NCBI GenBank assembly: GCA_900316245.1
Contig: ONCE01000003.1
Span: forward strand, 114,399 to 178,398
Direction of reading: 5' to 3'
Length of the DNA: 64,000 bases
DNA from: an uncultured Bacteroidales bacterium
GTDB lineage: Bacteria; Bacteroidota; Bacteroidia; Bacteroidales; UBA932
Position 1 is the first letter of the stretch. Each line of letters begins with the position of its first letter. The notes beneath the pieces were generated by a model, which did not search any database, was not told the origin of the DNA, and worked only from the letters and a program-made list of their open reading frames with translations. Both the position numbers and the translations under genes were made by a program. This document shows positions 17,167 through 56,723 of this stretch, one piece after another.

Positions 17167-19989
17167 TCATTTATAATAGAAACACGTCGGCGGAATGGAC
17201 TTGAATTCGTTGGTTCCGGGCGCGCACCAGAACCAGCTGAACGCCTCTCCTTCATAATCCTCGAAATACAGGATCTTGAAGGCGTGCAGCCCCTTCTCCA
17301 GCGGGATTTCGCCAAAGGCCGATACTTCCGAATGCGACCCGTCGTTGTTGACCACCAGCACCCCGTCTATATACAGGGCGCTGCCGTCATCGCTGCGCGT
17401 TTCAAAAGTCCACACCCCCGTGATGGGAATGTCAATGTATCCAAAGAAAGTATAGGCAAAATGGTCCTCGCGGTGCGTGCCCCCGATGGTGGGTTCCAGG
17501 ATAACGCCGGTGCCTTCGGCCGGGTCTCCCTCAATTTGGGAGAGAAGCGTAAAGTTGGCTTCGTGATACGTGTAGCGGCAACCGGATTTGAGGTCTTCCC
17601 GCTGGACCGAGGGGTGGAAATACAGTTTGTGGGCCGTCTGGAAAACCATGGGAGAAGGCGTCATGCCCTTTTTGAAAGCCCGGGCACGGATGGGGCCGGA
17701 CTCCCTGAGCGTAAACGGTTCCGTATACACCGGGCTCTCTTCCGTGGGCTCGCTGCCGTCCAGCGTGTAGTGGATGGCGGCGCCCGGCGTCTTGCAGCTG
17801 AGGCTCACTACGGTTTCGTCTTCAAACAAGGACAACTGCCCGTGGATGGCCGGAGGACAGACCGGAGGTTTACGGGTCAGTGAATAAGGACGGGGCAGGT
17901 CATTCCTCTCCGGATTGGGCTTGCGCGAGAGCTTGAAACTAAGAACGCCGCCCTCCATAATCTGCTCATAGGTAAGGAAATGCTGCTCTACCGGCTTCCC
18001 GTTCAGGAAAACCTTGGAAATGTAGGGGCGCCTGGGACGGTCGGCCTTGATGGTGAGGGTCTTTCCATTGCCCAGATGAAGGACCGACTCCTTGAAGAGA
18101 GGGGCGGTCAGCAGATACTCGCCGCTGCCGGGACAGACGGGATACAGCCCCAGGGAAGCCATCACATACCATGCGCCCATCTGGCCGCAATCCTCGTTGC
18201 CGCAGATGCCGCCGGGGTCGGTAGAATAGGTTTCCGTAAGGATCTGGCGTACCACCTGCTGGGAGCGGTAGGGCGCTCCGGTCCAGTAGAAAAGCCAAGG
18301 AAAATGGTGGTCGGGTTCATTGCCCTGGGCATACTGCCCCACTACCCCGCCAATTCCCACCGGATCCACGGTGGTATACCCTTCCGGAGAATAGGTAAAC
18401 AATGAATCCAGCGCATCCTGCAGGTATTTCTCTCCCCCCATAAGGGCGGCCAGTCCCCCCATATCGTGGGGCACGAAGAAACGGTACTGCCAGGGGGAAG
18501 CCTCTGTATAGTCCCTCGAACCTTTCAGCGGATCAAAGTCCTTGACCCACGAACCGTCGGCGTTCCGGCCCCGCATGAAACCGGTTCCCGGCTCAAACAG
18601 CTCCCGGTACCTCAGGGAGCGGGCATCGTATTCCCGGGCTATGTCCCCATGCCCCAGGCTCTCCGCCATGCGGGCTATGCACCAGTCGTCGTAGGCAAAT
18701 TCCAGGGTCTGCGACACCGTCTCTATCTTGAGGTCGGCCGGAATCCAGCCATACAGGTTGTAGAGCTGCGATGCGTTCACATTGTGCTTGTTGGAAGTGG
18801 CTATCATGGCCCGGAGGGCACGCTCCCCGTCAAAGGAGCGGATTCCGCGGAGCCAGGCATCGGCTATGACCGACACGGGATGGTAGCCAATCATGCAGGC
18901 GGTTTCGTCACTGGCGAGCGGCCAGATAGGAAGCTCTCCCAGGCAGTCGTAGTCGTCCAGGAGGGAGTTCACAATGTCTCCCGCGAGTTCGGGGTTGATA
19001 AGGGTCTGCAGCGGATGCCAGGTACGGAACGTATCCCAGATGGAAAGGGTGGAATAAAAGTGCTTCCCTCCTTTCAGCGGCACGTTCCGGCCGCTCTGGT
19101 CCCGGTACAGGCCGTCCACGTCCTCTATCCGGTTGGGTGTCTGGAAAGTGTGGTAGAAGTAGGTATAAAACACATCCGTAGGACCGCCTTTGACCTGGAT
19201 GGTACCCAGGGCCTGTGCCCAGCGGGATTTGGCCCGGGCCAGGGCCTCATCAAAGCCCGTGGTTTCCGCAAGCCGGTTTTTCCGGGCTCCTTCCTCACCG
19301 GTTCCCGAAAGGCCCGCCACCAGGCAGATTTCCTTCACTTCGTCCGGGAAGGTGAACAGCATTTTGCCAGGCCCCACTTCCAGGGCACTCACAAAGGGAA
19401 CGGAGAATTGGGCCGAAAGATAGATATCCCTCCCCTTGGCCCAGCCGTTAACCCGGCGGTGGCCCAGGATCTCCTGCCTTTCCACCCGCAGGGAAACCTC
19501 CTCTGGCACGCACCAGCCTCCCTGGCTATGACGGGCATCCAACAGGACAACCCGCTTGCCCGGCACCTTGAAGGTATAACGGTGATAACCGGTATGCTCC
19601 CAGACGGTAAGCTCGGCCACTACACTTTCCAGCTGCACCTTGTAATAGCCCGGCTCTGCCTCCTCGTTGTCATGGGAAAAAGCCAGGGGCCGGACCTCGT
19701 TGAGGCCCGGGGTTACAAGGAAATCTCCCAAGTCCGGGCATCCGGTACCGGAAAGGTGGGTATGGCTGAACCCTAGAAGAGTCTGATCGCTGTAATGGTA
19801 CCCGCCACAGAGATCCGGGTTGGTATCCGGACTCAGCTGGACAGCCCCGTATGGAACCGTTGCACCCGGATATGTGTTTCCGGATTCAGCCGTTCCGTTG
19901 AACACATTCACTTGCCTGGCAGGGTCTTGGTATTGTGCACAACCGGCCAGCCATAGCAACAACAATATACCCGGATACAATCTTTTCAT
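17167..19989 (-). CDS. GH92 alpha-mannosidase lipoprotein with CHB_HEX and PA14-like tail
   Basis: This 940-residue exported enzyme has lipobox LAGC (C17). The GH92 part (about 25-700) has the N-terminal NVFNGTAESGNTYPGATVPYG motif, the QYAQGNEPDHH segment and the GNEDCGQMGAWYV segment that carries conserved acidic residues of the family. GH92 enzymes are calcium-dependent exo-alpha-mannosidases. After it come a CHB_HEX_C-like domain (AAIHYTLDGSEPTEESPVY) and a C-terminal PA14-like module (EDHFAYTFFGYIDI, RSDDGSALYIDG). The same architecture occurs at 47243. It is the last gene of operon C, 14 bp after GH78, and ends exactly against the convergent GH20 gene. Linkage specificity is unknown. 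Confidence 0.93.
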   Translation of the reverse strand: MKRLYPGILLLLWLAGCAQYQDPARQVNVFNGTAESGNTYPGATVPYGAVQLSPDTNPDLCGGYHYSDQTLLGFSHTHLSGTGCPDLGDFLVTPGLNEVRPLAFSHDNEEAEPGYYKVQLESVVAELTVWEHTGYHRYTFKVPGKRVVLLDARHSQGGWCVPEEVSLRVERQEILGHRRVNGWAKGRDIYLSAQFSVPFVSALEVGPGKMLFTFPDEVKEICLVAGLSGTGEEGARKNRLAETTGFDEALARAKSRWAQALGTIQVKGGPTDVFYTYFYHTFQTPNRIEDVDGLYRDQSGRNVPLKGGKHFYSTLSIWDTFRTWHPLQTLINPELAGDIVNSLLDDYDCLGELPIWPLASDETACMIGYHPVSVIADAWLRGIRSFDGERALRAMIATSNKHNVNASQLYNLYGWIPADLKIETVSQTLEFAYDDWCIARMAESLGHGDIAREYDARSLRYRELFEPGTGFMRGRNADGSWVKDFDPLKGSRDYTEASPWQYRFFVPHDMGGLAALMGGEKYLQDALDSLFTYSPEGYTTVDPVGIGGVVGQYAQGNEPDHHFPWLFYWTGAPYRSQQVVRQILTETYSTDPGGICGNEDCGQMGAWYVMASLGLYPVCPGSGEYLLTAPLFKESVLHLGNGKTLTIKADRPRRPYISKVFLNGKPVEQHFLTYEQIMEGGVLSFKLSRKPNPERNDLPRPYSLTRKPPVCPPAIHGQLSLFEDETVVSLSCKTPGAAIHYTLDGSEPTEESPVYTEPFTLRESGPIRARAFKKGMTPSPMVFQTAHKLYFHPSVQREDLKSGCRYTYHEANFTLLSQIEGDPAEGTGVILEPTIGGTHREDHFAYTFFGYIDIPITGVWTFETRSDDGSALYIDGVLVVNNDGSHSEVSAFGEIPLEKGLHAFKILYFEDYEGEAFSWFWCAPGTNEFKSIPPTCFYYK

Positions 19990-20003
19990 ACTCAGAATAT
20001 TAG

Positions 20004-22415
20004 TTATTCATCGCTTTCTACGGTAACGCCCGGCGGAACGGAGTATTGGACCTCGGTGTCGTGACGTTCTACGGTTATGGGACCATAAGGGGTGGGCTGG
20101 GTAACCTTGACCCAGTCCAGACCGGCGGGCATCTGCGGAGCAATACGGACGCGGCGGAAGCCGGGCTCCAGGGCCACAATGCCGCCCAGGGCCTCATAGA
20201 ACCAGCTTCCGATGCCATTGAAGCAGTTGTGGAGGCGGCTGCGCTCGCCGTTCCAATGTTCCCATACGCCGGTGGCACCGTTGTCCAGCATATAAAGATA
20301 GCCGGGGTATCCGTGCTGCTTGAGCATCCCGTAAATCCAGTCGCACTCCCCGGCCCGGGTGGCCCATTCCGTAAGGACGGGAATCCCTACCAGACCGGTA
20401 GCCAGATGGCCTTTATACAAAGTGGCCGTACGTTCTTTCAGGGTATCCACCACCTGCGGTACCAGTTCTTCAGGCACCACCCCTACCAGCAGCGGATACA
20501 CCAGGTCGATCTGGCTGCCGGAAGCATAGATACCGTCGTGGTAGAAGGTCTCGTGAATCTTGGTCCGGAGGGCCTCCAGGCGCCTTCTGTAGTCGGCGGC
20601 ATCGGCCTGTAAATCCATGGCCTGGGCCATCTTTTCCAAAGCCAGAAAGCTCTGCGCCAACACACAGTTGCTCACCAGGTCCACGGAAGCCGGATCCTGC
20701 ACGTTCACGCCGTCGGGGGCCGCCCAGTCTCCCAGGTACCACCAGCGGTAAGGCGGCGTGGGCCATTCCTTGAGAAGGCCGTCCACGGAATACCGGTCCA
20801 CATACTCCAGCCAGAGCTTCATATTCCCGTAGTAACGTTCCATGGGCCGAGGATCGGCATAGTTCATATACGTACGCCAGGGTGCCTGCACCAGGAAACT
20901 GCACCAATAGGGGCCGCCGCCTGCCTTGTAGGGATTGGGGGCGGTATGGGGCAGGCCGCCGTCGGGACGCTGGGCATCGGCCCACGCCTGCAGCCAGTTC
21001 AAGAAGAGCGGGCTGACCTCGGCCATAATCTGGAGGGACTGGGCCGATGCATTGCCGTCTCCGCCATAGCCCAGCCGCTCGATGCTGGCGCAGTCTACCA
21101 TATAGCCGTCGAAGGCCAGGTTCTCCATGGTACGGAAGACCAGATCGTGGATGGCGTTGAGTTCGGGGTCTGAGCATTCAAAAGAAGCCGGCATGCTGAA
21201 GTTGGTGCGCATCCGGTAGGCCGATGGCTCCTTGGGCGCTTCCTTCAATCCTTCAAACAGCACATAGCGGAACACGTGGTGATTGAAGATGTTCTGGAAG
21301 TGGTCTCCCTCGCCGGCGGCTATGAACTCATCGTAGCCGCAGATGCTGGGATCGAAGAACTCGGGCGAAGCATCGCTATAGGAGATGCGAACCTGGTCTC
21401 CGGCCTTGAGACCGGGGAATTCCACATCCAAAAGGGCGTTGACCACCTGGCCAAAATCGGCCAGCCATTTTCCCTTTCCCAAGGATTCGACGGATACGGG
21501 AGACAGGATTTCCTGAATGGTACAGGGCTCGCACATCTGCATACTGGCCACCATACCCTCAACGGGAACCACTTCCACCGGGCCCCATTCGGGCTCCACC
21601 CGGTTATCCAGGCGTTCTCCCACGAAACCGTTCGGAAACCAGTTGCCCAGGTCCGAATAACCGTTCCAGGCTCCTTTCCAAGAGGCTTCGGTCCAAATCA
21701 CGGGCTCTCCGTTCAAATCCAGTTCCGCCTTTACCAGCGGGCCATCAAACTGGGCGCCAAAAGTGGTCTTCTTGTACCAGCCCGAGCCTATGGCCAGGAC
21801 CAGCTGGTTGGAACCTTCCTGGATGAGGTCGCTCACATCGTATACCACAATGAGCGACCGCTTGTCCAGCTGCGAAACGGCCGGCTGCAGCACAGCCTCC
21901 GACACGCGTTCCCCGTTCAGATAAACCTCGTGATAGCCCAGGGAGTTGACATAGAGAAGGGCCTCTCCGGTCTCCTGAAGAGCGAAATCCTTCTTCAGAA
22001 GCGGGGCTCTCCCCTTTCCCGGAACCGCGCCTATATAATCTCCCTTCAAGCCCTCCAGGGCACCTATACCCAAGCGCTGCCAGGGACTCCAGGCCGATTT
22101 TCCCCGGTTGGTCCAGATACGGACGCGCCAGCAGGTCTGCTGCTTGGAAACCAGGGCCGTTCCCCCATAAGGGACCATCACCTGGTCGTCACTGTCCACC
22201 CTGCCGGAGCGCCACAGGCCGGGGCCCACTTCTATCTCATAAGCCTTCTGCACCACCGGCTTGTCGGAAGCGATCTTCCAACTGAAATGGGGCTGGGTAT
22301 TGTCAATGCCCAGCGGCTCCACCAGGCCTTCGCAGCGGAGGTCGTAAAGTTGCACGGCCGGCTGACAGGCCGCCAGAAGCAGGCCCAGCAGCAGCCAACA
22401 GGAGATTCTACGCAT
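20004..22415 (-). CDS. GH78 alpha-L-rhamnosidase-like lipoprotein, divergent active-site motif
   Basis: This 803-residue protein has lipobox LLAAC (C17). The N-terminal Fn3-like domain (residues about 25-115, EPLGIDNTQPHFSWKI) and the rhamnosidase-N domain (VYLNGERVSEAVLQP) are typical of GH78 and place it in the family. The catalytic region reads VDCASIERLGYGGDGNAS (Asp441, Glu447), whereas the usual form is DCPxRxERLG(W/Y)xGD. The acidic residues remain but the Pro-Gln/His-Arg positions are replaced. The C-terminal beta-sandwich is intact. Relaxed specificity or an alternative sugar is possible. It starts 2 bp after the GH27 stop and lies within operon C. Confidence 0.85.
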   Translation of the reverse strand: MRRISCWLLLGLLLAACQPAVQLYDLRCEGLVEPLGIDNTQPHFSWKIASDKPVVQKAYEIEVGPGLWRSGRVDSDDQVMVPYGGTALVSKQQTCWRVRIWTNRGKSAWSPWQRLGIGALEGLKGDYIGAVPGKGRAPLLKKDFALQETGEALLYVNSLGYHEVYLNGERVSEAVLQPAVSQLDKRSLIVVYDVSDLIQEGSNQLVLAIGSGWYKKTTFGAQFDGPLVKAELDLNGEPVIWTEASWKGAWNGYSDLGNWFPNGFVGERLDNRVEPEWGPVEVVPVEGMVASMQMCEPCTIQEILSPVSVESLGKGKWLADFGQVVNALLDVEFPGLKAGDQVRISYSDASPEFFDPSICGYDEFIAAGEGDHFQNIFNHHVFRYVLFEGLKEAPKEPSAYRMRTNFSMPASFECSDPELNAIHDLVFRTMENLAFDGYMVDCASIERLGYGGDGNASAQSLQIMAEVSPLFLNWLQAWADAQRPDGGLPHTAPNPYKAGGGPYWCSFLVQAPWRTYMNYADPRPMERYYGNMKLWLEYVDRYSVDGLLKEWPTPPYRWWYLGDWAAPDGVNVQDPASVDLVSNCVLAQSFLALEKMAQAMDLQADAADYRRRLEALRTKIHETFYHDGIYASGSQIDLVYPLLVGVVPEELVPQVVDTLKERTATLYKGHLATGLVGIPVLTEWATRAGECDWIYGMLKQHGYPGYLYMLDNGATGVWEHWNGERSRLHNCFNGIGSWFYEALGGIVALEPGFRRVRIAPQMPAGLDWVKVTQPTPYGPITVERHDTEVQYSVPPGVTVESDE

Positions 22416-22417
22416 AA

Positions 22418-24598
22418 CTATTTCACTTTAACATACAGGACCCCGTGAGAAGGGATCATATACTGAGCCTCGGTAGGAATGTCCTTCTGGCGCCACAGGT
22501 CCCGCACCGTTTCGGCCTCCAGGCCAATCTTGGCCAGGGCACCGGAAAGAAGGGTGGGAACCGACTGGCCATTGAGGTTGAAGATGCCCACGGCCTTGCC
22601 GCCATCGGCCAGATCGCGGCTCCAGATCTGCATTCCGTCTTCCTCCACATCCTTGTGGGCCTGCCGGCCCAGGATATCCTGGTTCACGGCATTGACCTCA
22701 TTGTTGCACAGGAGGTTGAAGGTAAAGTCATCCATCTGGGAGAGATCGCAGCCTATGAGCATATTGGCCGCCAGCAGCGACCACAGGCTGATGTGGGTGT
22801 ACTGCTCGTCGGGGGTCAGGCGGCTGTCGCGGAGGTTGTTGCTCCAGCCCACCTTGCCCACCACCAGCATATCAGGGTCGTTCCAATGGCCCGGTCCCGC
22901 ATAGGGATGCAGGCCCACCTGCTGTTTAAAGCCGATGGTGTAAAGCGACTCCCAGGTATCGGTGATGTCTCCGGTAGTACGCCAGGAATTGGCGTCGATG
23001 AAGGCACCCCATTCCCATACCCGGGCATTGCCATACTGGCACAGGGAATAGAAGATATCCCGGGGCTGTTCCCGCAGGTACTGCTGCATCTTCATATAAG
23101 GCCGGATATTAGCGGCCACGGAATGGTCCGCGCTGGCGTTGAACACCTTGGAATATCCGCACCAGTCGTACTTGAGGTAATCCACGCCCCAGGAGGCCCA
23201 GGTCTCGGCGTCCTGCAGTTCGTGGTCCAGCGTACCCAGATAGCCGCCGCAAGTGCGGTCTCCGGGGCTGGAATAGATGCCCAGCTTGAGACCGTTTCCG
23301 TGCAGCCAGTCTCCCAGCGCCTTCATATCCGGGAATTTCTCATTGGGCGAGATGGTGCCGTCGGGATTGCGTTCTTCGGCCTCCCAGGCATCGTCGATGT
23401 TGATATAGGAATAGCCGTAATCGGCCAGGCCGGCATTGATGAAGGCGGCGGCCGAAGCCATTACCTTTTCCTGCGATACGCTCAGGCCCCAGCAGTTCCA
23501 GGAGTTCCAGCCCATAGGAGGCGTAAGGGCAATCTGAGCCCCCACCTTGAGGGTAAAGGCAGCCTTGGCCGAGCCCTTGGAATTGGTAGCCGTAAACACC
23601 AGCGGATAGTCTCCGGCCTGGGTGCAGGTGCCGCTCAGGACGCCCTTGTCCGGATCCAGCACAACGCCTTCCGGAAGGCCTTCCACGGCGTATTTCATAG
23701 GCTTCTCACCCGAGAAAGCCAGGCGGAAGATGACCGGGGAACCGGGCCGTACGCCAAACACGAGGGGTCCGTTGTAACGGGGCGTGGCCGGCGCCTTGGG
23801 AGTAAGGATATACGGGGTGGTTATCTGCTGGGCCACCTCTTCCTCCTCGAAGCGGGGATCCGTGTACACTACCGTAAGCCGCTTATGATGGTCCAAGGGG
23901 ACAAACAGCCTCTTTTCCTTCCAGGAACCCAGGCTCACTTTCTGGGTCTTGGAAGACTCCACCTGGCCGGTCAGGGCATCGGCCACCTCTATCTTGAGGG
24001 TGCCAGCCGTTTTGACGGCCGTGGAAAGGACAACCGTATAGCCGTCTTTTTCCTTTTCCAGATTCAGGCTCACGCAGTCGGTCAGACCCGGTTTCACAAT
24101 CCGGGCGCTCCTTTGATAGAAGCCGCCGGGATCTCCGCCGTTGAATACCCGAACGGCAATGACATTCTCCCCATCCCAGTTGACCCACTTGGGATCTACA
24201 ATGTAACGGCGGGGCTGCTGCCACTCGCCGGAATAGCCGCCTTTATCGGAGGGGAAACGGCCGGTCTTGCCTACCAAGTGGCCGTTGAACCACGTCTCAT
24301 CACTGTCGTCAATGGCGCCCAGGTCCAGCATAATGGCTTCCACCACGCCTTTCTTGAGCGAAGAAGGCACTACAACGTGGATACGGTACCAGCCAATTCC
24401 GTTGGTGTTCTGGATACCCTGCTGGTTCCAGTCCTTGTCCAGGACCAGCACAGGCCACGCGGCATCGGCAAAATCCGGAGCCTGCCAGGCCGGATTGTCG
24501 CCCTTCTGGAAACGGCCGCTTTCCATAATAACTTCCTGGGCCGATGCAAGGCCTCCCGCCAGCAGGAGGGCCCAGCCAATAAGAATCAGTCTTTTCAT
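22418..24598 (-). CDS. GH27 alpha-galactosidase-type enzyme with N-terminal sugar-binding and Ig domains
   Basis: This 726-residue secreted protein has a signal peptide cleaved near residue 20 (LASAQ). Residues 22-170 form a GH2-type jelly-roll sugar-binding domain (VNWDGENVIAVRVFNGGDPG). About 260-352 is a putative Ig/cadherin-like domain (ATPRYNGPLVFGVRPGSPV). The GH27 catalytic barrel follows, with LTPPMGWNSWNCWG at 358, INIDDAWEAEER at 399 and the nucleophile Asp478 in YLKYDWCGY. It should remove alpha-galactose or a related sugar (beta-L-arabinopyranose or alpha-GalNAc in some relatives). It is strongly similar throughout to the 34788 gene, so the two are recent-looking paralogues shared by operons B and C. 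Confidence 0.9.
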   Translation of the reverse strand: MKRLILIGWALLLAGGLASAQEVIMESGRFQKGDNPAWQAPDFADAAWPVLVLDKDWNQQGIQNTNGIGWYRIHVVVPSSLKKGVVEAIMLDLGAIDDSDETWFNGHLVGKTGRFPSDKGGYSGEWQQPRRYIVDPKWVNWDGENVIAVRVFNGGDPGGFYQRSARIVKPGLTDCVSLNLEKEKDGYTVVLSTAVKTAGTLKIEVADALTGQVESSKTQKVSLGSWKEKRLFVPLDHHKRLTVVYTDPRFEEEEVAQQITTPYILTPKAPATPRYNGPLVFGVRPGSPVIFRLAFSGEKPMKYAVEGLPEGVVLDPDKGVLSGTCTQAGDYPLVFTATNSKGSAKAAFTLKVGAQIALTPPMGWNSWNCWGLSVSQEKVMASAAAFINAGLADYGYSYINIDDAWEAEERNPDGTISPNEKFPDMKALGDWLHGNGLKLGIYSSPGDRTCGGYLGTLDHELQDAETWASWGVDYLKYDWCGYSKVFNASADHSVAANIRPYMKMQQYLREQPRDIFYSLCQYGNARVWEWGAFIDANSWRTTGDITDTWESLYTIGFKQQVGLHPYAGPGHWNDPDMLVVGKVGWSNNLRDSRLTPDEQYTHISLWSLLAANMLIGCDLSQMDDFTFNLLCNNEVNAVNQDILGRQAHKDVEEDGMQIWSRDLADGGKAVGIFNLNGQSVPTLLSGALAKIGLEAETVRDLWRQKDIPTEAQYMIPSHGVLYVKVK

Positions 24599-24602
24599 AG
24601 GT

Positions 24603-26968: not shown

Positions 26969-31074
<4,106 letters not shown>

Positions 31075-31998: not shown

Positions 31999-32035
31999 AA
32001 ACAACGTATTGGTATTCATTAATTAGCGTGGTATA

Positions 32036-47243: not shown

Positions 47244-50044
47244 TATCTGTAATATAATTGTTCTTCAGGTACAAGGGTAAAGTCCACTTCGTTCTCGGGA
47301 CACCAGTGCCAGACCAGGGCCTGTCCTTCGTAGTCTTCCAGGTATACCAGCCTGTAAGCGTGCATACCTTTGAGAAGCGGAATGCGGCCCATGGTGGTAA
47401 TGGCCGAATGGGAGCCGTCGTTGTTCACTACCAGCTGGCCGTCTATTTCCAGGATGGCGCCGTCATCACTGGTAAGGGCGAAACTCCAGATGCCGTCGGC
47501 AGGGATGTCGATGTAGCCGGTGAAGATATAGCCAAAATGGTCTTCGTCCGGGGCGCCGGCAATGGAAGGGCTCTTCATTACGCCACTCCCCTTCACGGGG
47601 CTTTTTTTCACATCGGCGGCCCAGGCGAACTCACCCTGGTGGTAGGTATAGCGGCAGCCGTTCTTGAGGGCGCCCACCTTGGCGGCCGGGAAATACTCGG
47701 CCTTGGTGGCCAGGGCGAAAGCCTCAGGAGAAGGCTTCATCCCCGCCTTGAAAGCCCGGGCACGGATAAGGGCCGAATGGTCCAGCTGGACAGGGCCCGT
47801 ATACAGGGGACTGTCCTGCGTGGGTTCGCTGCCGTCCAGGGTATAATGGATGGCGGCGCCTTCCGTGCGGCTGGAGAGGACCAGGTCCAGGGATTCCTTG
47901 AACAGGGACAGGCCTTCCGGCAGGGCGGGTGTGGAAACGACGGGCTCCTTGCTCAGGGAATAAGGGGCAGGAAGGGCATCCCTGCGGTGGTCCGGCCGCT
48001 TGGAAAGCGTGAAGGCCAGGGTACCGCCGGCCATAATTTCCTCATAGGTGATGTAGTTGCGGTCCAGGGACTGGCCGTTGAGTTTCACTCCGGACACAAA
48101 CTTCCAGTTGGGATAGTCGGCCGTGATGGTCAGGGTTTTCCCATTACCTAACGAAAGAGTGGCTTTCTTGAACAGAGGAGCCGCCAGGACATATTCTCCG
48201 CTGGCGGGGCAGGCGGGATAGATACCCAGGGAGGAGAGAACGTACCAGGCACTCATCTGGCCGCAGTCTTCGTTGCCGCAGACGCCTTCGGGAGTGGTAT
48301 CGTACATTTCTTCCAGCAGGGAGCGGACGGTCTCCTGGCTGCGGGACGGAGCGCCCAGCCAGTTATAGATCCAGGCCATATGGTGGCTGGGCTCGTTGCC
48401 GTGGGCATACTGACCCATCAGGCCGGTGATGTCCGAAACCTTCACTTTGTCACTGCGCTCCTGATAGGTAAAGAGGGAGTCCAGGGCCGCCAGCATGGGC
48501 TGGGTGCCGCCCATCAGGTCCGTATGGCCGGCTACGTCGTGCGGGACAAAGAAACGGGCCTGCCAGGGAATGGCTTCCGTATAATCGTACGTGGAGGCAA
48601 TGGGGTCGAAGGGCTCCACCCAGTTACCGTTGTGGTCCCTTCCGCGCATGAAGCCGGTGGTGGGATCAAAGACATTCTGGTAACGCAGGGAACGGGCGTA
48701 GTATGTGGCGGCTATATCGGCCTGGCCCAGACTCTCTGCCATACGGGCTATGCACCAGTCGTCGTAGGCCATCTCCAAGGTTTGGGAAACGGACTCGCGC
48801 ATAAGGTCCGAAGGAATGTAATCATACTTGTTGTAGAGGTCCGAGGTAATGCCCTTGTTCTTGTTGGAAGAAGCCACCATGGCGGCGAGGGCCTCGTTTC
48901 CGTCGTAGCCGCGGATACCGTGGAGCCAGGCATCGGCAATGACGGGAATGCTGTGGTAACCGATCATACAGCCGGTCTCCCCGTAGCCCAGGGGCCAGAT
49001 GGGAAGTTCTCCCCAACGGCGGTACATCTCCAGCATGCTATTGATCATATCATTGACCAGGGTGGGGTTCAGCAGGGTCTGCAACGGGTTCCAGCTACGG
49101 AAGGTATCCCACAGCGAAAGGGTGGAATAGAAGGGTCTGGGACTGGTGAAATCGGCAATGTTGTTGGGCTCCACGAAAGTGTGGTAGAAACAGGTGTAAA
49201 ACTGCTCCACGGGACCGCCTTCTACGGTAATACGCCCGAGGGCCTCATTCCAGGCCCTGGTAGCCTGACCCAGGACGGCATTGAAGTTCTTTCCGTCCGT
49301 TTCCGCCACGCGGTTGGTCCTGGCTTCCTCTATACCGGTATAGGACAGGCCCACCCAGACGGTGAGTTCCGACAGGTCTTCCGGGAAAGTGAGCAGGAGT
49401 TCTCCGGGGGCCACTTCTTCGGCCTCCTCGAATTCCTCGGAGAAGGCGGCGTTGAGATAAATGGCTCTGCCCTGCACCCATCCGTTTACCAGGCGCTTGC
49501 CGCTTACCTCGTCGTCATCTTCTTCCTTGAACCAGGCTTCGACGGCCACATTGCCGTTTCCGATGCAGTGGTTGGCATTGAGCAGCAGGCGGCGCTTCCC
49601 TTCTGCGGTAAACGTGTAACGGTGCACGCCCACGTGCGGGGCAGCGGTAAGCTCCACCGTCACCTCAGGGGTTACCACCTTGTAATAACCGGGACGGGCC
49701 TCCTCCATTTCGTGGTCCAGCGGGAGGGGCTTGATATCCTCCACGCCGGGGGTAAAGAGAAAATCTCCCAGGTCTGCGCAGCCCGTACCGGAAAGATGCG
49801 TATGGCTGAAACCCAGGATGGAGGTATCGGAATAGTGGTAGCCGGAGCAGCCGTCCCATCCGTAAGTGCGGGTATCCGGGCTCAGCTGGACCAGGCCGAA
49901 GGGCGTGGTGGCACCGGGATACGTATGACCATGGAAGCCGGTACCGTTGAAGACATTCGCCGATTCGAGGGCCGAAGGGGACGTCTGCCGGGCGCAGGCG
50001 ACCGTGACGGCCAACAAGATGATAAACAGCTGGTTAAGTCTCAT
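47243..50044 (-). CDS. GH92 alpha-mannosidase lipoprotein with CHB_HEX and PA14-like tail
   Basis: This 933-residue exported protein has lipobox-like VAC (C17). The GH92 core has NVFNGTGFHGHTYPGATTPFG, QYAHGNEPSHH and GNEDCGQMSAWYV, the family's conserved acidic motifs. It is followed by a CHB_HEX_C-like domain (AAIHYTLDGSEPTQDSPLY) and a PA14-like module (GCRYTYHQGEF, EDHFGYIFTGYIDI, TSDDGAILEIDG). It parallels the 17167 gene domain for domain but is clearly diverged in the core, so linkage preference may differ. It is the first gene of operon B, behind the promoter at 50092-50123. Confidence 0.93.
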   Translation of the reverse strand: MRLNQLFIILLAVTVACARQTSPSALESANVFNGTGFHGHTYPGATTPFGLVQLSPDTRTYGWDGCSGYHYSDTSILGFSHTHLSGTGCADLGDFLFTPGVEDIKPLPLDHEMEEARPGYYKVVTPEVTVELTAAPHVGVHRYTFTAEGKRRLLLNANHCIGNGNVAVEAWFKEEDDDEVSGKRLVNGWVQGRAIYLNAAFSEEFEEAEEVAPGELLLTFPEDLSELTVWVGLSYTGIEEARTNRVAETDGKNFNAVLGQATRAWNEALGRITVEGGPVEQFYTCFYHTFVEPNNIADFTSPRPFYSTLSLWDTFRSWNPLQTLLNPTLVNDMINSMLEMYRRWGELPIWPLGYGETGCMIGYHSIPVIADAWLHGIRGYDGNEALAAMVASSNKNKGITSDLYNKYDYIPSDLMRESVSQTLEMAYDDWCIARMAESLGQADIAATYYARSLRYQNVFDPTTGFMRGRDHNGNWVEPFDPIASTYDYTEAIPWQARFFVPHDVAGHTDLMGGTQPMLAALDSLFTYQERSDKVKVSDITGLMGQYAHGNEPSHHMAWIYNWLGAPSRSQETVRSLLEEMYDTTPEGVCGNEDCGQMSAWYVLSSLGIYPACPASGEYVLAAPLFKKATLSLGNGKTLTITADYPNWKFVSGVKLNGQSLDRNYITYEEIMAGGTLAFTLSKRPDHRRDALPAPYSLSKEPVVSTPALPEGLSLFKESLDLVLSSRTEGAAIHYTLDGSEPTQDSPLYTGPVQLDHSALIRARAFKAGMKPSPEAFALATKAEYFPAAKVGALKNGCRYTYHQGEFAWAADVKKSPVKGSGVMKSPSIAGAPDEDHFGYIFTGYIDIPADGIWSFALTSDDGAILEIDGQLVVNNDGSHSAITTMGRIPLLKGMHAYRLVYLEDYEGQALVWHWCPENEVDFTLVPEEQLYYR

Positions 50045-50123: not shown

Positions 50124-50140
50124 AGGTTTTTTCTTACAGA

Positions 50141-50170
50141 AAAAAAGGGCGGAGCCTTGCGGCTTCGCCC
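50141..50170 (-). terminator. Intrinsic terminator of operon A
   Basis: The arms 50147-50156 and 50161-50170 pair over 10 bp with one G-T position around a TTGC loop. On the minus strand the stem is followed by six T residues (AAAAAA at 50141-50146). It lies 31 nt past the stop of the beta-helix lipoprotein and just upstream of the operon B promoter, so susCD and the enzyme operon are separate transcripts. Confidence 0.88.
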
Positions 50171-50200
50171 TGATGAAATTCTTCGTTTAAGCTAAAGATT

Positions 50201-51889
50201 CTACTGGACCTGATAGCAGCCCATGTTGATCTTACCATCTACGACACGGTTCTTACCCAGGAGGTCTTTACCGTAGTCTTTCATGATCTTGGCCACATCG
50301 TCGCTGTAGTCACCGTTGAGGGCGTCTCCCTTGGGCATGTAGTCGCCCTTGGCAGGATCAGCGAAGATGGTGGTAAGGTCGAAGCCCACCTTGGGAATGA
50401 TGTTGCCCTTCTCGGCATCCGGTTCGGGTTTGCCGTCACCGTAGATACCACCCTCGATGATGTTGCTGCGCACCACGCAGTCTTCACGCACCACGCAGTC
50501 CAGCTTGGCCTGGTAGGCCTGGCGGTAGAACACGTCGGGGTTGTCCTTGATGGCGGAGAGATTACCGGCCACGATATTGTTCACCATGAACATCTTGATC
50601 TGCTCACGGGTCTGGATGCAGAACCAGGGGCTTCCATCATTCTCATCGTAGTTCTTGTTAGCGGTGATGGTGTTGTTGATCATGTACATCTCAACATTCT
50701 TGTAGATCATCACGGCAGCGCAGTAACCGTCGAACTTCTTGGCGAAGTTGCCGGTGATGAGGTTGTTGATCAGGTAAACCTTCTGGTTAGCCTCGCCGTC
50801 GAAGCAGAAGCCACCGGCGTGGTGACCCGTGCTCACGTTGTCCTTGATAATGCTGTTCTTGACGATGCAGGTACCATCTACGCCTTCTGCGGTGAGCAGG
50901 GCGCCACCACGGTTGGTGGAGGTGTTGTCGTGAATGTAGCAGTTGTCTACGATCACGTCGCCGCATACATAGATGCCGCCGCCCTTGTTCACGATATCGT
51001 TGGCGTAGCCGTTACGCAGCTCGAAGTTGGAGATGGTAGCCGGGCTCTCGAGGGGTTCTTTCACCTTGGTCTGGGGGTTGAAGCCCACGAATACGCAGTT
51101 CACGGTATTGTTACCGTCGATGACGGACTTCTTGTCCACGTTCTGCTCCGTAAAGCCATTCTCCCAACCACCGGAAACGGTCACATCGGCCTTGAGGCAT
51201 ACTCCGCCAGGGAATACGGCACCGGCAGCGACACGCACCTCAGAATAGGCGGGAGCGCTGTTGATGGCAGCCTGGAGGTCTTCACCCTGGGCCACAACGA
51301 TGGGCTTGATGAAGCCGAAGGGCTTGTCGCTTTCCACCTTCATACCCTCCAGGGACTCAACATAACCCCAGATGTAGTACATGGTGTTCTTTTCCAGATT
51401 GGAAAGGGTGATCTTGTTCTTTCCGGCCACCAGGGCGGTGGTACCGGACTGCTTGGTAGCTTTGGACTTGTCGTTCTCCTTGCTGAAGAGGACACCCCAA
51501 CCGGCATAGTCATCCAGGTTGGACGTATTCACATCCACGGCAATGGTGGCATAGTCGTCACCAAATGCGGCAACGGAAAGTGCGAGAGCAGCGTCCAGAT
51601 CCTGCGTCTTCTGGCTGATGACGCAGACACCGCCACCGGCGATGGGGAACTCGGCGCGACGCACCAGGCCCGTGGTGTTGAGCTTGGTGGTGAAAGTGGC
51701 CGTAGTGCCGGACTGGGTCATGGTGATCCAGGAGGCATTGATGGGAGTCAGGTTACCGGGAACGGTCATCGTGAAGGTAGAGGGCTTGTAGTCCACTACC
51801 TTACGATACGGGTTGGCTTCTTCCTTCACCTTTCCACAGGAAACAGCGAGAAGGGCCACGCCCAAGATAGCAAATAATATCTTTTTCAT
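50201..51889 (-). CDS. Surface lipoprotein with Fn3-like and parallel beta-helix (pectate-lyase-like) domains
   Basis: This 562-residue protein has lipobox AVSC (C18). The N-terminal 200 residues hold beta-sandwich (Fn3-like) sequence, for example ITLSNLEKNTMYYIWGYVES. Then EDLQAAINSAPAYSEVRVAAG and a run of beta-helix coils rich in Asn/Gly/Val (NFELRNGYAND, DNCYIHDNTSTNRGGALL, NSIIKDNVSTGHHAGGF) extend to about residue 480. The fold resembles polysaccharide lyase or choice-of-anchor surface proteins, but no canonical lyase catalytic triad is recognisable. Following susD by 21 bp, it is in the usual position of a surface glycan-binding protein or first-cut enzyme for the system. Function is not proven. 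Confidence 0.72.
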   Translation of the reverse strand: MKKILFAILGVALLAVSCGKVKEEANPYRKVVDYKPSTFTMTVPGNLTPINASWITMTQSGTTATFTTKLNTTGLVRRAEFPIAGGGVCVISQKTQDLDAALALSVAAFGDDYATIAVDVNTSNLDDYAGWGVLFSKENDKSKATKQSGTTALVAGKNKITLSNLEKNTMYYIWGYVESLEGMKVESDKPFGFIKPIVVAQGEDLQAAINSAPAYSEVRVAAGAVFPGGVCLKADVTVSGGWENGFTEQNVDKKSVIDGNNTVNCVFVGFNPQTKVKEPLESPATISNFELRNGYANDIVNKGGGIYVCGDVIVDNCYIHDNTSTNRGGALLTAEGVDGTCIVKNSIIKDNVSTGHHAGGFCFDGEANQKVYLINNLITGNFAKKFDGYCAAVMIYKNVEMYMINNTITANKNYDENDGSPWFCIQTREQIKMFMVNNIVAGNLSAIKDNPDVFYRQAYQAKLDCVVREDCVVRSNIIEGGIYGDGKPEPDAEKGNIIPKVGFDLTTIFADPAKGDYMPKGDALNGDYSDDVAKIMKDYGKDLLGKNRVVDGKINMGCYQVQ

Positions 51890-51910
51890 AATGATCTCTG
51901 TTCTGAAAGA

Positions 51911-53560
51911 TTACTGCCAAGCCGGTACATTCTTGAGGGCGCCGGCGCTCTTGTTAATCTGCTCGGAAGGATAAGGGAAGGTCATGTACTTGTCGCTCCA
52001 ATGCTTCTCCGGAGTCTTGTAGTCCTCGTAAGCACCTACGGTAGGAACACCGGCGGGGTCTGCACGGTCTACATAGTGACGGGCACGGGGATGGGCGTTG
52101 AGTTCGGCCACGGCAAGAGCCTTGATGGCATCGGCACCGGAATAAGCCCAGCGCTTGCAGTCAGCGGCATGGTCGGCGGCCAGCTCGAAGGCCAGCTCGC
52201 AGCGACGCTCGTGGTAGAGGTCGGCCCAGGTGGCGTTGCCGGGGAGAGGAGACAGGTGAGAGCGGGTGCGGATACGGTTGATATCGGAAGCAGCCTTTCC
52301 GGCTTCACCGGCTACGAGGTAAGCCTCGGCACGGAGCAGCAGGCAGTCTGCAAAGCGGACGATGGGCCAGTTGATGCGGGTGGTGGGCCAGTCACCATTG
52401 GGGTTCACAAGACCGGAGCCCGTAGGATCTGCGGGAGCGAAGGCCTGCATGAACTTGTAGATGGCAAAACCGGATTCCACATCGGAGGTGGACCAGAACT
52501 TGCGGGTTTCACCGAAGAACGGGAACTCGTCGCCGTATTCCAGGATGGAAGCCTTGAGACGCTCGTTGCCGGCGCCGTCCTTCAGCATTTCCTCGTAGAT
52601 ATCGTAGGAGGGTTTGAACTGGCCCCAGCCATTGAACTTACCCCAGCCCTTGTTCTCCAGCAAAACGCCGGTGATTTCAACACCACCGCCGTCGGTGCCG
52701 CCGTCAGAAGGCCAGCCCCAGCAGTATTCAACGGTCCAGAACTTGGCATAGTCGGGGGCAAAGAGGTCTGCAAACTTGGGAGCCAGGTCACGGCCATATT
52801 CGCTTTCCAAGCGGTTTACGCAAGTGATCACATTGGGCCACTGGGTCTTGTCCCAGGTTGCCCAGTAGGCATACGTCTTGGCCATGAGGGCAGCGCAGGC
52901 AGCCTTGTGGACACGGCCACGGTCTGCAGCGCTGTATTCCTCAAACTTGGGGACTAGGGCCTCAGCCTTCTCCAGGTCGGAGACGATGTACTTATAGTCG
53001 TCCATCACAGTGGCCTGCTGGGCAGGAATCTCGTTGTTGTATCCACCTTCCACATCTTCGTACGCCACGAAGGGAACGCCCAGGTCCTTGGTACCGTAAC
53101 GGTAGGCAATGAGGAAGTGCCAGTAGGCGCGGAGGAAATAAGCCTCGCCCAGGCTGCGGGTTTCAATAGCGGTAAGAGAAGTCTCGTCCGCCTTGAGGAG
53201 GAGCTGCTGGATGACCCAGTTGCAACGGTTCATACCTTCTTTGTAGGCTTTCTCAAAGACACCGCGAAGAGGGCTCTCGTCACCGGTATAGTTAAGGGTG
53301 GCCAGCGTAGGATAGCTGCGGGTACGGCCCCACACGATATCGTTGGCGCAAGCCTGCTCCCAATAGATTTCACGGCCCAGTACGGCTTCCTGAGGAAGGC
53401 GGGCATAGCAGCCGTCCACGGCGTCAATGGCCTGCTGGTCGTTCTGGAAGAACTGGTCCTGGGTAGGATAACCCTGAGTCTGGACATCCAGGAACTTTTC
53501 GCAGGATGCTGCGCTCAGAGCGCCAAGGGCAATAGCAGTGATAACAATATACTTTTTCAT
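51911..53560 (-). CDS. SusD/RagB-family starch-binding-type lipoprotein
   Basis: I use the ATG at 53560 (MKKYIVITAI); an alternative two codons upstream cannot be excluded. The 549-residue protein has a lipobox AASC (C20). It has the SusD alpha-helical TPR scaffold: FLDVQTQGYPTQDQFFQND at the N-terminus, AYFLRAYWHFLIAYRYG, RFADCLLLRAEAYLVAG and the RRCELAFE motif. SusD proteins cap the SusC channel at the cell surface and deliver glycans to it. It follows susC by 13 bp. Ligand specificity cannot be read from sequence. Confidence 0.95.
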   Translation of the reverse strand: MKKYIVITAIALGALSAASCEKFLDVQTQGYPTQDQFFQNDQQAIDAVDGCYARLPQEAVLGREIYWEQACANDIVWGRTRSYPTLATLNYTGDESPLRGVFEKAYKEGMNRCNWVIQQLLLKADETSLTAIETRSLGEAYFLRAYWHFLIAYRYGTKDLGVPFVAYEDVEGGYNNEIPAQQATVMDDYKYIVSDLEKAEALVPKFEEYSAADRGRVHKAACAALMAKTYAYWATWDKTQWPNVITCVNRLESEYGRDLAPKFADLFAPDYAKFWTVEYCWGWPSDGGTDGGGVEITGVLLENKGWGKFNGWGQFKPSYDIYEEMLKDGAGNERLKASILEYGDEFPFFGETRKFWSTSDVESGFAIYKFMQAFAPADPTGSGLVNPNGDWPTTRINWPIVRFADCLLLRAEAYLVAGEAGKAASDINRIRTRSHLSPLPGNATWADLYHERRCELAFELAADHAADCKRWAYSGADAIKALAVAELNAHPRARHYVDRADPAGVPTVGAYEDYKTPEKHWSDKYMTFPYPSEQINKSAGALKNVPAWQ

Positions 53561-53573
53561 AATCATGCTCGTA

Positions 53574-56500
53574 TTAGTAGGTCAGTTTTACACCAAAGGC
53601 GAATACGCGGGAAACCGGGTACATGAGGCCGTCCCAGCCGCCCACTTCGGGATCCATACCGGAGTACTTGGTGATGGTAAGAAGGTTCTCACCGCTGAAG
53701 TACACGTTCAGGGAGCTTCCGCGATCGTTGAAGTGCTTGCACTTGCGAAGGAGGGAGGTGAAGTCGTAGCCGATGGTTACGTTCTTGAGACGGAGATAGG
53801 AACCGTCCTCGATGTACCAGTCGGAAGGAGTGGAGAAGTTACCGTTGGGGTCGTTCTTGCTCAGACGAGGGATGGAGGAACCGGTGTTGGTGGGGCTCCA
53901 GGCATTCAGGATCTCCACGCTGCGGTTGAAGTTACCTTCCACATCGCCCAGGATCATCTGCTTACCCACATAGGCAATCTTGTTGCCGGCAACACCCTGC
54001 CACATCATGGAGAAGTTGAAGTTCTTGTAGTTGAAGCCAGCGCTCAGGGCAAAGGTGTACTTGGGCATGGCGGAACCTACATACTGACGGTCGTTGTCGT
54101 CAATCTTGCCGTCACCGTTGGCATCCACAAAGCGGAGGTCACCGGCCTGGGCAGCGGGCTGGATGAGCTTACCGTCCTTCACGTGGTCGTAAACGTCTTC
54201 TTCGCTCTGGAAGATGCCGTCGGTCTTGATCACATAGAAGGAATTCAAAGGCTGGCCGGCCTCGGACTGATAGATCCAGGGCATCATACGGAAGTCTCCG
54301 CCGCCGGTCCACTTACCGGCGTTGCCATCCTCGTCCAGAACGCCGGTGGAAATCACCGCGTTGTGGTTGTAAGCGAAGTTACCCGTTACATAGTAGTTGA
54401 AATCCTTACCGATCTTGTCTTTCCAGTTGGCCAGGAACTCGACACCGGTGTTGCGGATTTCACCCTGGTTCACCTTCATGGCATCCAGGCCGATGGTCTG
54501 GGGCCAGCCCATGGTCTGGTCCTGGATCAGGTTGAACGTGCGCTTGTTGTAGTAGTCAACGGACAGGGAGAGGCGGTCGCGGAAGAGATCCACGTCAATA
54601 CCACCATCAAACTGCTCGGAGGTTTCCCAGGTCAGAAGCTGGTTCACAGCCTTCTGGGGGAACCAGAAAGTACCATACTGGGCACCGGTTTCCACACCGT
54701 AGATAGCAGACTCATTCCAGTTGCTGCTGCTCAGGTTGGCGCTCTTGTAGTTGAGGCCGATGGAACCCAGGTTACCTACGCGACCCCAGGAAGCACGGAG
54801 CTTGAGGAGGCTGATGGCGTCGGTCTGGGGGAAGAAAGGCTCGCTGGAAATCTTCCAGGCACCGGTCACGGCCGGGAAGTCACCCTTGTTGTGACCCTTG
54901 GGCAGGCGGCCGGCATAGTCACGGCGCCAGGATGCGGTCACAAAGTAGCGGTCGTCATAGCTGTAGGAGCCACGGGCAATGAAAGCCACGTTGGCATCGT
55001 CACCGGTGTACCAGTCACCCTTGGTGTCGTTGTCACCCGCGGTAACGGTACCGGCGAAGGCGATATACTGGAGAGCTTCGGATTCATCCTCGAAGTCTTT
55101 ACCCACGAGGGAGAAGCCGCGGCCCCAGGAACGGTTGGCCGTAGTAGAGAGGAGAGCGCCCACCGTGTGCTTGCCGAAGGTACGGTCAAAGGTGAGGGTG
55201 TTTTCCGTGCGCCACTCTTCGTCGCGGCTGGTGATCCACTTGAGCTTGTTGTCCAGAGCGGGCTTACCAATCTCGGGACGCTTGGGATTGAAGTTCTTGT
55301 ACAGCCACTGGGAGTTGTTGTAGGTGAACTTGGAATTGAACTTGAGACCCTTCACGATGTTGGCAATCTCAAGGCCCGTGGTGGTCCAGAACTTGGTGGT
55401 GTGGTCATAACGGGTATCGGCCAGCAGGAGGCGGAGCGGGTTGATGGCATCACCGTGGATATCGGCAAAGTTGCTGCCGTACTTGGCAATGTAGGCGGGA
55501 TCCTCGGTCACGGTACCGCCGTAAGAACCGGCGTAAGGACCGGCAGTAGCATAGGCTTCTGCACTCTGAGGCATGTAGATAGCGGAAAGGATGGAACCGC
55601 TGTAAGCGCTGCTGGTGTTGGTACCGCGGCTGCTCACGTCACCGTAGGAGAGGTCCTCCGTGATCTTGATGTACTTGTTCAGCTGGTACTCTCCGTTGTA
55701 GCGGACACCCAGCTCTTTCTTGAACGTACCCACCAGGACACCGGGGTTGTCCTGATAGCTGAAGGTCAGACGGCTCTTGAGCTTGTCGCTACCATAATTG
55801 AGGGTGAGACCATGACGCTGATAGAAAGCCGTGCGGAAGATCTCATCCATCCAGTTGGTGCGGGTGGTTCCCACCCAGGGGTTCACGTTGGTATCCCAGC
55901 CGGTAGGCAGGGTAAGGCCGGCGTTGGCATAGGAGATCTTGCGCATCTCAATCTCCTGCTGAGCGTTCAGCGACTGGGGAAGATTGGAAGCCACATTGGC
56001 ACCAGTCACGAGATTGTACTCTACATGGATGCCCTGGGAGCCCTTCTTGGTGGTTACCAGGATAACGCCGCCGGCACCGGAAGTGGCACCGTAGATAGCG
56101 GCAGAGGCAGCGTCCTTCAAAACGACGATGCTCTCGATATCGTTCATGGAGGTGATGGGAGCGCCGGGAACGCCGTCTACTACCCACAGCACGGAGTCTC
56201 CGTTACGGGAGCCCTGGCCACGGATAATGACCTGGGGCGTGGAATCCGGAGAACCGCCGTTGGCAGAGATAGTCACGCCAGGGATCTGGCCCTGGAGCAT
56301 GCCCTCCGTGGAGGTAACCGGACGGGAGGCCAGCTCTTCGGCGTTGTTCACGATACCCACAGAAGCGGACAGGTCCTTCTTCTTGGTCTGGGCACCGTAA
56401 CCGAGGGCAACGGCTTCCTGAAGCATTTCAGCATCTTCCACGAGGACGATGTTGATGTTGGTGCGACCGTTCACGTTCACCTGTTGCGTGGCGTAGCCCA

Positions 56501-56723
56501 GGCAGGAGACTTCGAGAACAGCGTTGGACGGAACGGAAATGGTATAATTACCATCCAAGTCCGTAACGGCGTTGGCACTACCGGAGAGCACTACGGCACC
56601 AGCGACAGGTCCCATAGCGTCACTCACGGTTCCACGCACTGTCAGATTCTGGGCTTGCGCCGAGAAGGTTACCACCAGGCACATAAGTGCGGCGGCAAAA
56701 CCGAACAGTTTCTTGGAAATCAT
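53574..56723 (-). CDS. SusC/RagA-family TonB-dependent outer-membrane transporter
   Basis: This 1049-residue protein has a signal peptide (cleavage near FSAQAQ). A carboxypeptidase-D-regulatory-like domain (about 27-105, LTVRGTVSDAMGPVAGAVV) is followed by a plug domain (LQGQIPGVTI, VIIRGQGSRNGD, LWVVDGVPG) and a 22-strand barrel ending VFAFGVKLTY. There is no N-terminal STN domain, so no sign of direct anti-sigma signalling. It would import the oligosaccharides captured by SusD using TonB energy. It is the first gene of operon A behind the promoter at 56812-56843, with an unusually long (about 80 nt) AT-rich leader. Confidence 0.96.
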   Translation of the reverse strand: MISKKLFGFAAALMCLVVTFSAQAQNLTVRGTVSDAMGPVAGAVVLSGSANAVTDLDGNYTISVPSNAVLEVSCLGYATQQVNVNGRTNINIVLVEDAEMLQEAVALGYGAQTKKKDLSASVGIVNNAEELASRPVTSTEGMLQGQIPGVTISANGGSPDSTPQVIIRGQGSRNGDSVLWVVDGVPGAPITSMNDIESIVVLKDAASAAIYGATSGAGGVILVTTKKGSQGIHVEYNLVTGANVASNLPQSLNAQQEIEMRKISYANAGLTLPTGWDTNVNPWVGTTRTNWMDEIFRTAFYQRHGLTLNYGSDKLKSRLTFSYQDNPGVLVGTFKKELGVRYNGEYQLNKYIKITEDLSYGDVSSRGTNTSSAYSGSILSAIYMPQSAEAYATAGPYAGSYGGTVTEDPAYIAKYGSNFADIHGDAINPLRLLLADTRYDHTTKFWTTTGLEIANIVKGLKFNSKFTYNNSQWLYKNFNPKRPEIGKPALDNKLKWITSRDEEWRTENTLTFDRTFGKHTVGALLSTTANRSWGRGFSLVGKDFEDESEALQYIAFAGTVTAGDNDTKGDWYTGDDANVAFIARGSYSYDDRYFVTASWRRDYAGRLPKGHNKGDFPAVTGAWKISSEPFFPQTDAISLLKLRASWGRVGNLGSIGLNYKSANLSSSNWNESAIYGVETGAQYGTFWFPQKAVNQLLTWETSEQFDGGIDVDLFRDRLSLSVDYYNKRTFNLIQDQTMGWPQTIGLDAMKVNQGEIRNTGVEFLANWKDKIGKDFNYYVTGNFAYNHNAVISTGVLDEDGNAGKWTGGGDFRMMPWIYQSEAGQPLNSFYVIKTDGIFQSEEDVYDHVKDGKLIQPAAQAGDLRFVDANGDGKIDDNDRQYVGSAMPKYTFALSAGFNYKNFNFSMMWQGVAGNKIAYVGKQMILGDVEGNFNRSVEILNAWSPTNTGSSIPRLSKNDPNGNFSTPSDWYIEDGSYLRLKNVTIGYDFTSLLRKCKHFNDRGSSLNVYFSGENLLTITKYSGMDPEVGGWDGLMYPVSRVFAFGVKLTY

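Follow-up and report, generated by a model that had tools for sequence, protein, structure and literature searches.

A polysaccharide utilization locus of a Bacteroidales bacterium, likely from the rumen, that combines GH92 and other glycosidases with a GDPD-like/alkaline-phosphatase fusion and further phosphoesterases

The closest described systems are summarized here from those passages of the cited papers that deal with them. In Flavobacterium, phosphate utilization system (PUS) clusters pair SusCD proteins with phosphodiesterases and phosphatases and are set against polysaccharide utilization loci (PULs) that bear carbohydrate-active enzymes (CAZymes); in PUSII of F. johnsoniae, which is induced by phosphate depletion, PusCD2 is encoded next to PhoA1, in which a pf13653 domain accompanies the alkaline phosphatase (PMC8115612). 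The α-mannan PULs of Bacteroides thetaiotaomicron rely on GH76, GH99, GH38 and GH125 (PMC10154615; PMC7825182), and phosphatases remove the mannan phosphate during mannan breakdown (PMC10154615). The locus investigated in this work lies at positions 17167-56723 of a stretch of 64,000 nucleotides (the window) from an uncultured Bacteroidales bacterium, and includes a gene for a fusion of a domain resembling glycerophosphodiester phosphodiesterases (GDPDs) with an alkaline phosphatase. As in PUSI and PUSII of F. johnsoniae, a SusCD-like pair stands beside phosphodiesterase or phosphatase genes, both in the window and in outgroup loci, but unlike the PUS, which has no CAZymes beside it, the window also encodes glycoside hydrolases (GHs) of families GH92 and GH63 and more than 10 glycosidases (PMC8115612).

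Named genomes were scanned with the N-terminal domain of the fusion. Of the 147 relatives found, the 80 best were retained, and 77 of these possessed both domains. Partner genes were sought in the fetched stretch of up to 10 kb on each side, by similarity to proteins of the window or of two related loci (L132 and L127), and 20 loci of plain alkaline phosphatases drawn from same-family matches served as controls. GH92 was found near the fusion in 61 of the 77 loci, GH63 in 66 and both in 58, together with a ROK kinase (43 loci), SusC (38 loci) and a further phosphoesterase that was EEP, metallophosphatase, PDE310-, PDE519- or GDPD-like (53 loci). No control locus contained GH92, GH63, EEP, metallophosphatase or SusD, and ROK, GH20 and XylR were each found in one. 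Given the occurrence of GH92 (61/77) and GH63 (66/77) against 0/20 in the controls, the coupling of glycosidases and phosphoesterases is real and conserved, beyond chance. XylR-type regulators (periplasmic-binding-like domain plus AraC helix-turn-helix) were present in 16 of the 80 related loci, compared with 1/20 controls and 0/20 outgroup loci, and EEP in 41 of the 80, whereas no M15 peptidase gene was found near the fusion in any of them.

The order of the accessory genes differed among close relatives. A compact order, SusC-SusD-GH92-EEP-fusion-metallophosphatase(PA14)-GH63-ROK, was found in Dysgonomonas alginatilytica (L132), whose EEP protein is related to PDB 4c1r, named as a mannosyl-6-phosphatase (E 2.7e-47), but is closer to 3g6s, which has no assigned function. 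The carriers of the fusion included Alistipes, Dysgonomonas and an unclassified member of the Chitinophagaceae. In rumen relatives the EEP protein is often about 575 aa long with a GDPD-like C-terminal part (L087:13904-15370 and cluster c8); this protein is predicted to be a second phosphoesterase fusion in the module.

A wider draw on the phylum comprised 394 genomes, 37 with the N-terminal domain of the fusion, and the loci of 20 of the 36 others (19 from other orders and one from the same order) were fetched as an outgroup. SusC was present in 18 of these 20 loci, with SusD no more than 700 bp from the fusion in 10, while GH92 and EEP were each found in one and GH63 in none. A tree was reconstructed from 68 of 97 fusion sequences, the 29 rows left out being nearly all from close rumen relatives. 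It separated 48 gut-type rows from the 20 outgroup rows by a branch with an SH-aLRT support of 100, and GH92 or GH63 was carried by 41 of the 48 gut-clade rows but by only one outgroup row. In view of this split and of the distribution of the GH label, the tree indicates that the coupling characterizes the gut lineage, with exceptions due to loss, local gain or contigs that are not complete. The best reading of these data is that the fusion and SusC/SusD represent a phosphate-utilization-type cassette that was joined in gut Bacteroidales to an α-mannosidase set.

The C-terminal half of the fusion (residues ~312-640) is an alkaline phosphatase, and the residues that presumably fill the catalytic roles in it (D321, S362, E531, D536, H540, D578, H579 and H605) were invariant in seven aligned rows. 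The N-terminal domain (residues ~20-245) scored only 19.5 bits on PF13653 (GDPD_2), below the cut-off of 27 bits, and a sequence-profile search of the PDB with this domain gave nothing significant (best E 0.32). The fold search used the domain modelled alone (271 residues, pLDDT 86; the model of the two-domain fusion had a pLDDT of 73), and its best PDB matches were GDPDs and spider phospholipase/sphingomyelinase D (1zcc, E 2.3e-7; 9die, E 7.1e-7), at modest TM-scores of about 0.5. The H/E/D/H residues were found at the expected places and were invariant in 31 aligned rows, including that of the window. The N-terminal domain is predicted from its nearest fold to be a GDPD-like phosphodiesterase domain. 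The preliminary description had named a PLC/GDPD-alkaline phosphatase fusion, of which the phosphatase half is firm; the GDPD half is a candidate assignment, below the Pfam cut-off and with a modest fold match.

Among 149 genomes of the family, a full-length fusion was present in eight (the source genome included) and a partial one in two; 128 of the 149 had a match to the fusion, most to the phosphatase half only. In one full-length fusion (G107:C23:38760-40637) the first GDPD motif is altered, so that its diesterase half may be inactive. At two loci (L052 and L053, from G014 and G144) a GDPD-like domain without the phosphatase half adjoins a GH92 gene on the opposite strand. No relative of the fusion was found in the viral contigs scanned, where none of 20 pattern matches was confirmed.

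Glycosidases and phosphoesterases of the window are also connected by their C-terminal PA14 domains. The PA14 tails of the GH3 enzyme and of the AlkP-superfamily phosphoesterase-like lipoprotein shared 77 of 142 residues (54 %), and those of the two GH92 enzymes 71 of 140. Six tails were compared, including those of one metallophosphatase and one type I phosphodiesterase encoded at other loci, and all 15 pairs scored far above 100 shuffles each. Because a phosphoesterase and a glycosidase share this binding tail, they probably meet the same polymer. The coupling of glycosidases with exported phosphoesterases that was first proposed for this locus is thus supported by the conserved linkage, the shared tails and the tree.

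Both GH92 proteins of the window matched PF07971 above cut-off and kept the Glu of the YTEA.PWQ stretch, which is taken to be the catalytic acid of the family. This Glu is replaced in CcMan5, a GH92 enzyme of the type that uncaps Man-P-Man. Both proteins matched 7zgm and 6f8z better than CcMan5, which GH92 (b) matched at only E 1.3e-29, and 7zgm, the nearest solved relative of GH92 (b), is presumably an enzyme of the published work on Bacteroides N-glycans. With the Glu kept and CcMan5 distant, a role of the window GH92 enzymes in uncapping Man-P-Man was not favoured. The source genome has five further GH92 genes, in four loci, with neither homologues of the module phosphoesterases nor such a PA14 tail nearby. 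On contig C35 of this genome (31647-36032), a GH125 gene lies between two GH92 genes, possibly as a separate α-mannoside locus.

The source genome comprises 2.24 Mb in 35 contigs and is 92.8 % complete, the window representing positions 114399-178398 of contig C21. Among the best 80 of the 147 relatives, the closest named fusion loci, by identity of the N-terminal domain, were those of Bacteroidales RUG720 (90 %) and of a metagenome-assembled genome from dairy-cattle reticulum (88 %), and the host is for this reason likely to be a rumen Bacteroidales. Protein families were assigned with Pfam and NCBIfam profiles and their cut-offs (Table 1). All genes of the locus lie on the minus strand in a single run with intergenic gaps of -20 to 156 bp and one SusC/SusD pair, so that the three operons (A-C) originally proposed are not clearly distinguishable. 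The run combines a SusC/SusD pair with co-directional degradative enzymes, by which PULs are defined, and signal peptides or lipoboxes were apparent by eye at the N-termini of its proteins. Promoter and terminator scans of the window gave results close to the shuffled expectation (8 versus 5.1 and 12 versus 10.7, respectively) and carry no weight.

Table 1. Genes of the run at window positions 17167-56723, with the evidence for each assignment
Feature	Position	Strand	Evidence
SusC/RagA TonB-linked outer-membrane transporter	53574..56723	-	TIGR04056 750 bits, cut-off 368
SusD-family binding lipoprotein	51911..53566	-	PF07980 and PF14322 above cut-off
Lipoprotein after SusD, possible surface glycan-binding protein (role suggested by position)	50201..51889	-	No Pfam match; relatives' homologues adjoin SusD
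GH92 (b) + CHB_HEX_C_1 + PA14 tail	47243..50044	-	PF07971 532.1 bits; nearest solved chain 7zgm
Fusion: GDPD-like domain + alkaline phosphatase	45318..47243	-	PF00245 162.6 bits; fold match of N-terminal domain
GH63/MGH1-like glycosidase, frame-broken	43767..45321	-	C-terminal part PF22422 108.7 bits, PF03200 41.4 bits
AlkP-superfamily phosphoesterase-like lipoprotein + PA14 tail	42202..43761	-	PF07691 above, PF01676 below cut-off
GH43 + CBM6	40815..42209	-	PF04616 151.9 bits
GH20	39306..40811	-	PF00728 359.5 bits
GH9-like + CelD_N domain, start corrected	37043..39325	-	PF00759 56.4 bits, PF02927 48.8 bits
GH27 (b)	34788..36980	-	PF16499 166.2 bits
GH3 + PA14 tail	32105..34783	-	PF01915, PF00933 and PF07691 above cut-off
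Type I phosphodiesterase (NPP/AlkP superfamily), lipoprotein	31087..32019	-	PF01663 83.7 bits
DUF2490 protein	30445..31074	-	PF10677 48 bits
GH2 LacZ-type + ricin-B lectin domain, start corrected	26969..30436	-	PF02836 273.4 bits, PF14200
M15 D-Ala-D-Ala dipeptidase-like	26237..26965	-	PF01427 113.1 bits
DUF3108-like protein	25536..26240	-	PF21347 66.9 bits
GDPD-DUF4996 lipoprotein	24603..25532	-	PF03009 96.5 bits; nearest solved 3i10, E 1.8e-59
GH27 (a)	22418..24598	-	PF16499 175 bits
GH78	20004..22415	-	PF17389 294.1 bits
GH92 (a) + CHB_HEX_C_1 + PA14 tail	17167..19989	-	PF07971 522.5 bits

These assignments confirmed, with small corrections, the set of glycosidases and phosphoesterases listed in the preliminary description, including the separate GDPD. 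Of the two type I phosphodiesterases it listed, one was recovered with PF01663, whilst the other scored only 19.4 bits on PF01676 (Metalloenzyme; cut-off 24.3) and carries the PA14 tail. The protein called VanX belongs to the M15 family but scored 188 bits on the VanX equivalog, for which the cut-off is 320. The GH63-type enzyme was recognized from its C-terminal part, in a gene that is broken: the reading frame of the N-terminal part spans 45321 to 44947, and the C-terminal part forms an ORF in another frame at 43767-45005. In many relatives this gene has an uninterrupted frame of about 530 aa, and the break may be an assembly error or a real loss.

The SusC gene is immediately preceded, on its own strand, by genes for C69 and M48 peptidases (56880-59300), each of which was found in one of the 80 related loci. 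On the other side of the run (1172-17166) the window contains two GH3 genes, GH78, GH2, a plus-strand GH20, MgtC, a dihydrolipoamide-dehydrogenase-like gene and a gene for an unmatched protein of 561 aa. Elsewhere in the source genome (L142, C18:38000-57999), a stretch at about 7064-14124 encodes a XylR-type regulator with 43 % identity to that of L127, a GH2 enzyme that looks like an exo-β-glucosaminidase/mannosidase, a plain alkaline phosphatase and GH20, with an SSF symporter adjoining.

It is considered fairly probable that the locus is a PUL for an α-mannosylated glycan with phosphodiesters, in which a PUS-type cassette has merged with the α-mannosidase set. The diester would, by analogy with the substrates of GDPD and sphingomyelinase D, be of glycerol or inositol type, and the substrate class, the order of the steps and their cellular places are put forward as proposals. 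SusC/SusD would import the phosphodiester-bearing glycan. The GDPD-like half of the fusion would then open the diester, and the alkaline-phosphatase half, on the same chain, would remove the remaining phosphomonoester. Further esters may be handled by the GDPD, the type I phosphodiesterase and the PA14-tailed AlkP-superfamily protein. GH92 would trim α-mannose and the GH63/MGH1-like enzyme a further α-linked residue, with GH20, GH27, GH2, GH3, GH43, GH78 and GH9 acting on side chains. Since many gut relatives keep the pairing of GH92 with a phosphoesterase, it is suggested that they, too, eat a phosphate-bearing mannose glycan.

Several observations weigh against this proposal. The counts of linked genes are not independent, as the 80 loci include many close relatives and were found through homologues of the window, and SusC was present in 12 of the 20 control loci. 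No GH92 was seen in 16 of the 77 fusion loci, some of which are cut by contig ends. Two loci, from Proteiniphilum (L122) and Parabacteroides faecis (L125), had SusC/SusD and the fusion without a GH92 or GH63 match, so that part of the fusion family may serve phosphate alone. On the tree, the GH label needs eight changes, with seven of the 48 gut rows lacking GH92 and GH63 and one of the 20 outgroup rows possessing either. The PDE310, PDE519 and GDPD proteins of the window recurred in only seven, four and one of the 80 related loci, respectively. The window showed neither an EEP nor a metallophosphatase domain, the homologues matching there only via PA14 tails or the phosphodiesterase domain. 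Another part of the source genome encodes an EEP homologue, and the ROK matches in this genome are distant. Finally, the window's own GH63 gene is the frame-broken one described above.

A narrower version of the proposal concerns glycosylphosphatidylinositol (GPI) anchors which, like inositol-phospho-glycans, contain glycerol- or inositol-type phosphodiester parts. GPI-like glycans appear to fit best and teichoic acid poorly; of the candidates in the preliminary description, the GPI- or glycosyl-inositol-phosphoceramide-type glycan is a possible one and the apparent best fit to the phosphoesterase set. That the module of GH92, EEP, fusion, metallophosphatase, GH63-like enzyme, ROK and sometimes GH20 is a pathway dedicated to GPI or glycosyl-inositol-phospho-glycans is, however, a tentative and rather doubtful idea. 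In such a pathway the GDPD-like half would free inositol from the lipid phosphate, and the phosphate on inositol would be removed by the alkaline phosphatase. EEP and metallophosphatase would act on mannose-6-phosphate and ethanolamine-phosphate, and dismantling of the mannose, hexosamine and glucosaminyl-inositol core would fall to GH92, GH20 and the GH63-like enzyme.

It is unlikely that the locus, like a PUS, collects organic phosphate, with glycosidases that merely expose the phosphate groups. The pairing of PusCD2 with the pf13653-bearing PhoA1 under phosphate depletion (PMC8115612), the weak pf13653 signal of the window fusion and the close SusD of half of the outgroup loci are consistent with scavenging, but in gut Bacteroidales the fusion is accompanied by GH92 and GH63; 43 of 77 loci also encode a ROK sugar kinase, and 16 of 80 have XylR-type regulators, whose family suggests a response to sugar.

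A fungal or yeast phosphomannan locus, comparable to the mannan PULs of B. thetaiotaomicron with added phosphatases, is about equally improbable. Phosphatases do remove phosphate from mannan (PMC10154615), the window encodes both GH92 and GH27, and the EEP protein present in 41 of the 80 loci is related to a solved mannosyl-6-phosphatase. In the source genome, however, GH38 and GH99 had no match, GH76 reached only 22.4 bits (cut-off 25.9) and GH125 lies on another contig; both GH92 enzymes keep the YTEA.PWQ Glu and are far from CcMan5, and the GDPD-like domain would have no obvious role on Man-1-P-6-Man. The classical phosphomannan candidate of the preliminary description is thus weakened, as GH76, GH99 and GH38 were not above cut-off, and a mannan locus of the B. 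thetaiotaomicron type was rejected for this genome, which is 92.8 % complete.

A locus for a teichoic-acid or peptidoglycan polymer, also among the earlier candidates, is very unlikely. GDPDs cut glycerophosphodiesters, and GDPD, M15 and GH20 genes are all present in the run, but the candidate is weakened by the absence of M15 from all 80 related loci and the presence of GDPD in only one, the most conserved partners being GH63 and GH92, an α-mannosidase family; it was rejected as the principal explanation. Chance clustering of housekeeping phosphatases inside a general plant-fibre locus, to which the varying accessory gene order and the presence of GH78, GH43, GH3, GH2 and GH9, all common in fibre loci, might point, is very improbable given the controls without GH92 or GH63, the shared PA14 tails and the lack of nearby module phosphoesterase homologues at the five GH92 genes that the source genome has outside the locus.

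If the proposed merger of a PUL with a PUS-type cassette is correct, gut and rumen Bacteroidales share the use of a phosphodiester-bearing mannose glycan, beyond the classical mannan loci, that arose by the merger of a phosphate-utilization cassette with an α-mannosidase set, and the fusion would provide a bifunctional chain of diesterase and phosphatase for dismantling phosphoglycans such as GPI anchors. Cultured carriers with a compact locus, such as D. alginatilytica (L132), make the substrate findable.

In comparison with known systems, PhoA1 (Fjoh_3249) of F. johnsoniae is, going by its published description, built in a similar way to the window fusion, whose own PF13653 match is below cut-off, and the outgroup fusion loci, with SusC/SusD and almost no GH92 or GH63, resemble PUSII (PMC8115612). 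The α-mannan PULs of B. thetaiotaomicron have SusC/SusD, GH92 and phosphate-removing enzymes in common with the window, whereas a GDPD-like/AlkP fusion does not appear in the relevant passages on them (PMC10154615; PMC7825182). Bacteroides N-glycan loci share GH92 with the window, without a phosphoesterase partner in the passages that describe them (PMC9522356). The modelled fold of the N-terminal domain, at modest TM-scores, and its H/E/D/H residues resemble those of GDPD and spider sphingomyelinase D, from which it differs by its fusion to an alkaline phosphatase. Phosphate chemistry, held in the preliminary description to be foreign to ordinary plant-fibre loci, is less odd than implied, the cited passages on B. 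thetaiotaomicron mannan (PMC10154615) and on the Flavobacterium PUS (PMC8115612) offering precedents. Among open-licence PMC papers, a search turned up none that was seen to describe the combined locus. The locus is best read as a PUL merged with a PUS-type cassette, both kinds of system being separately known.

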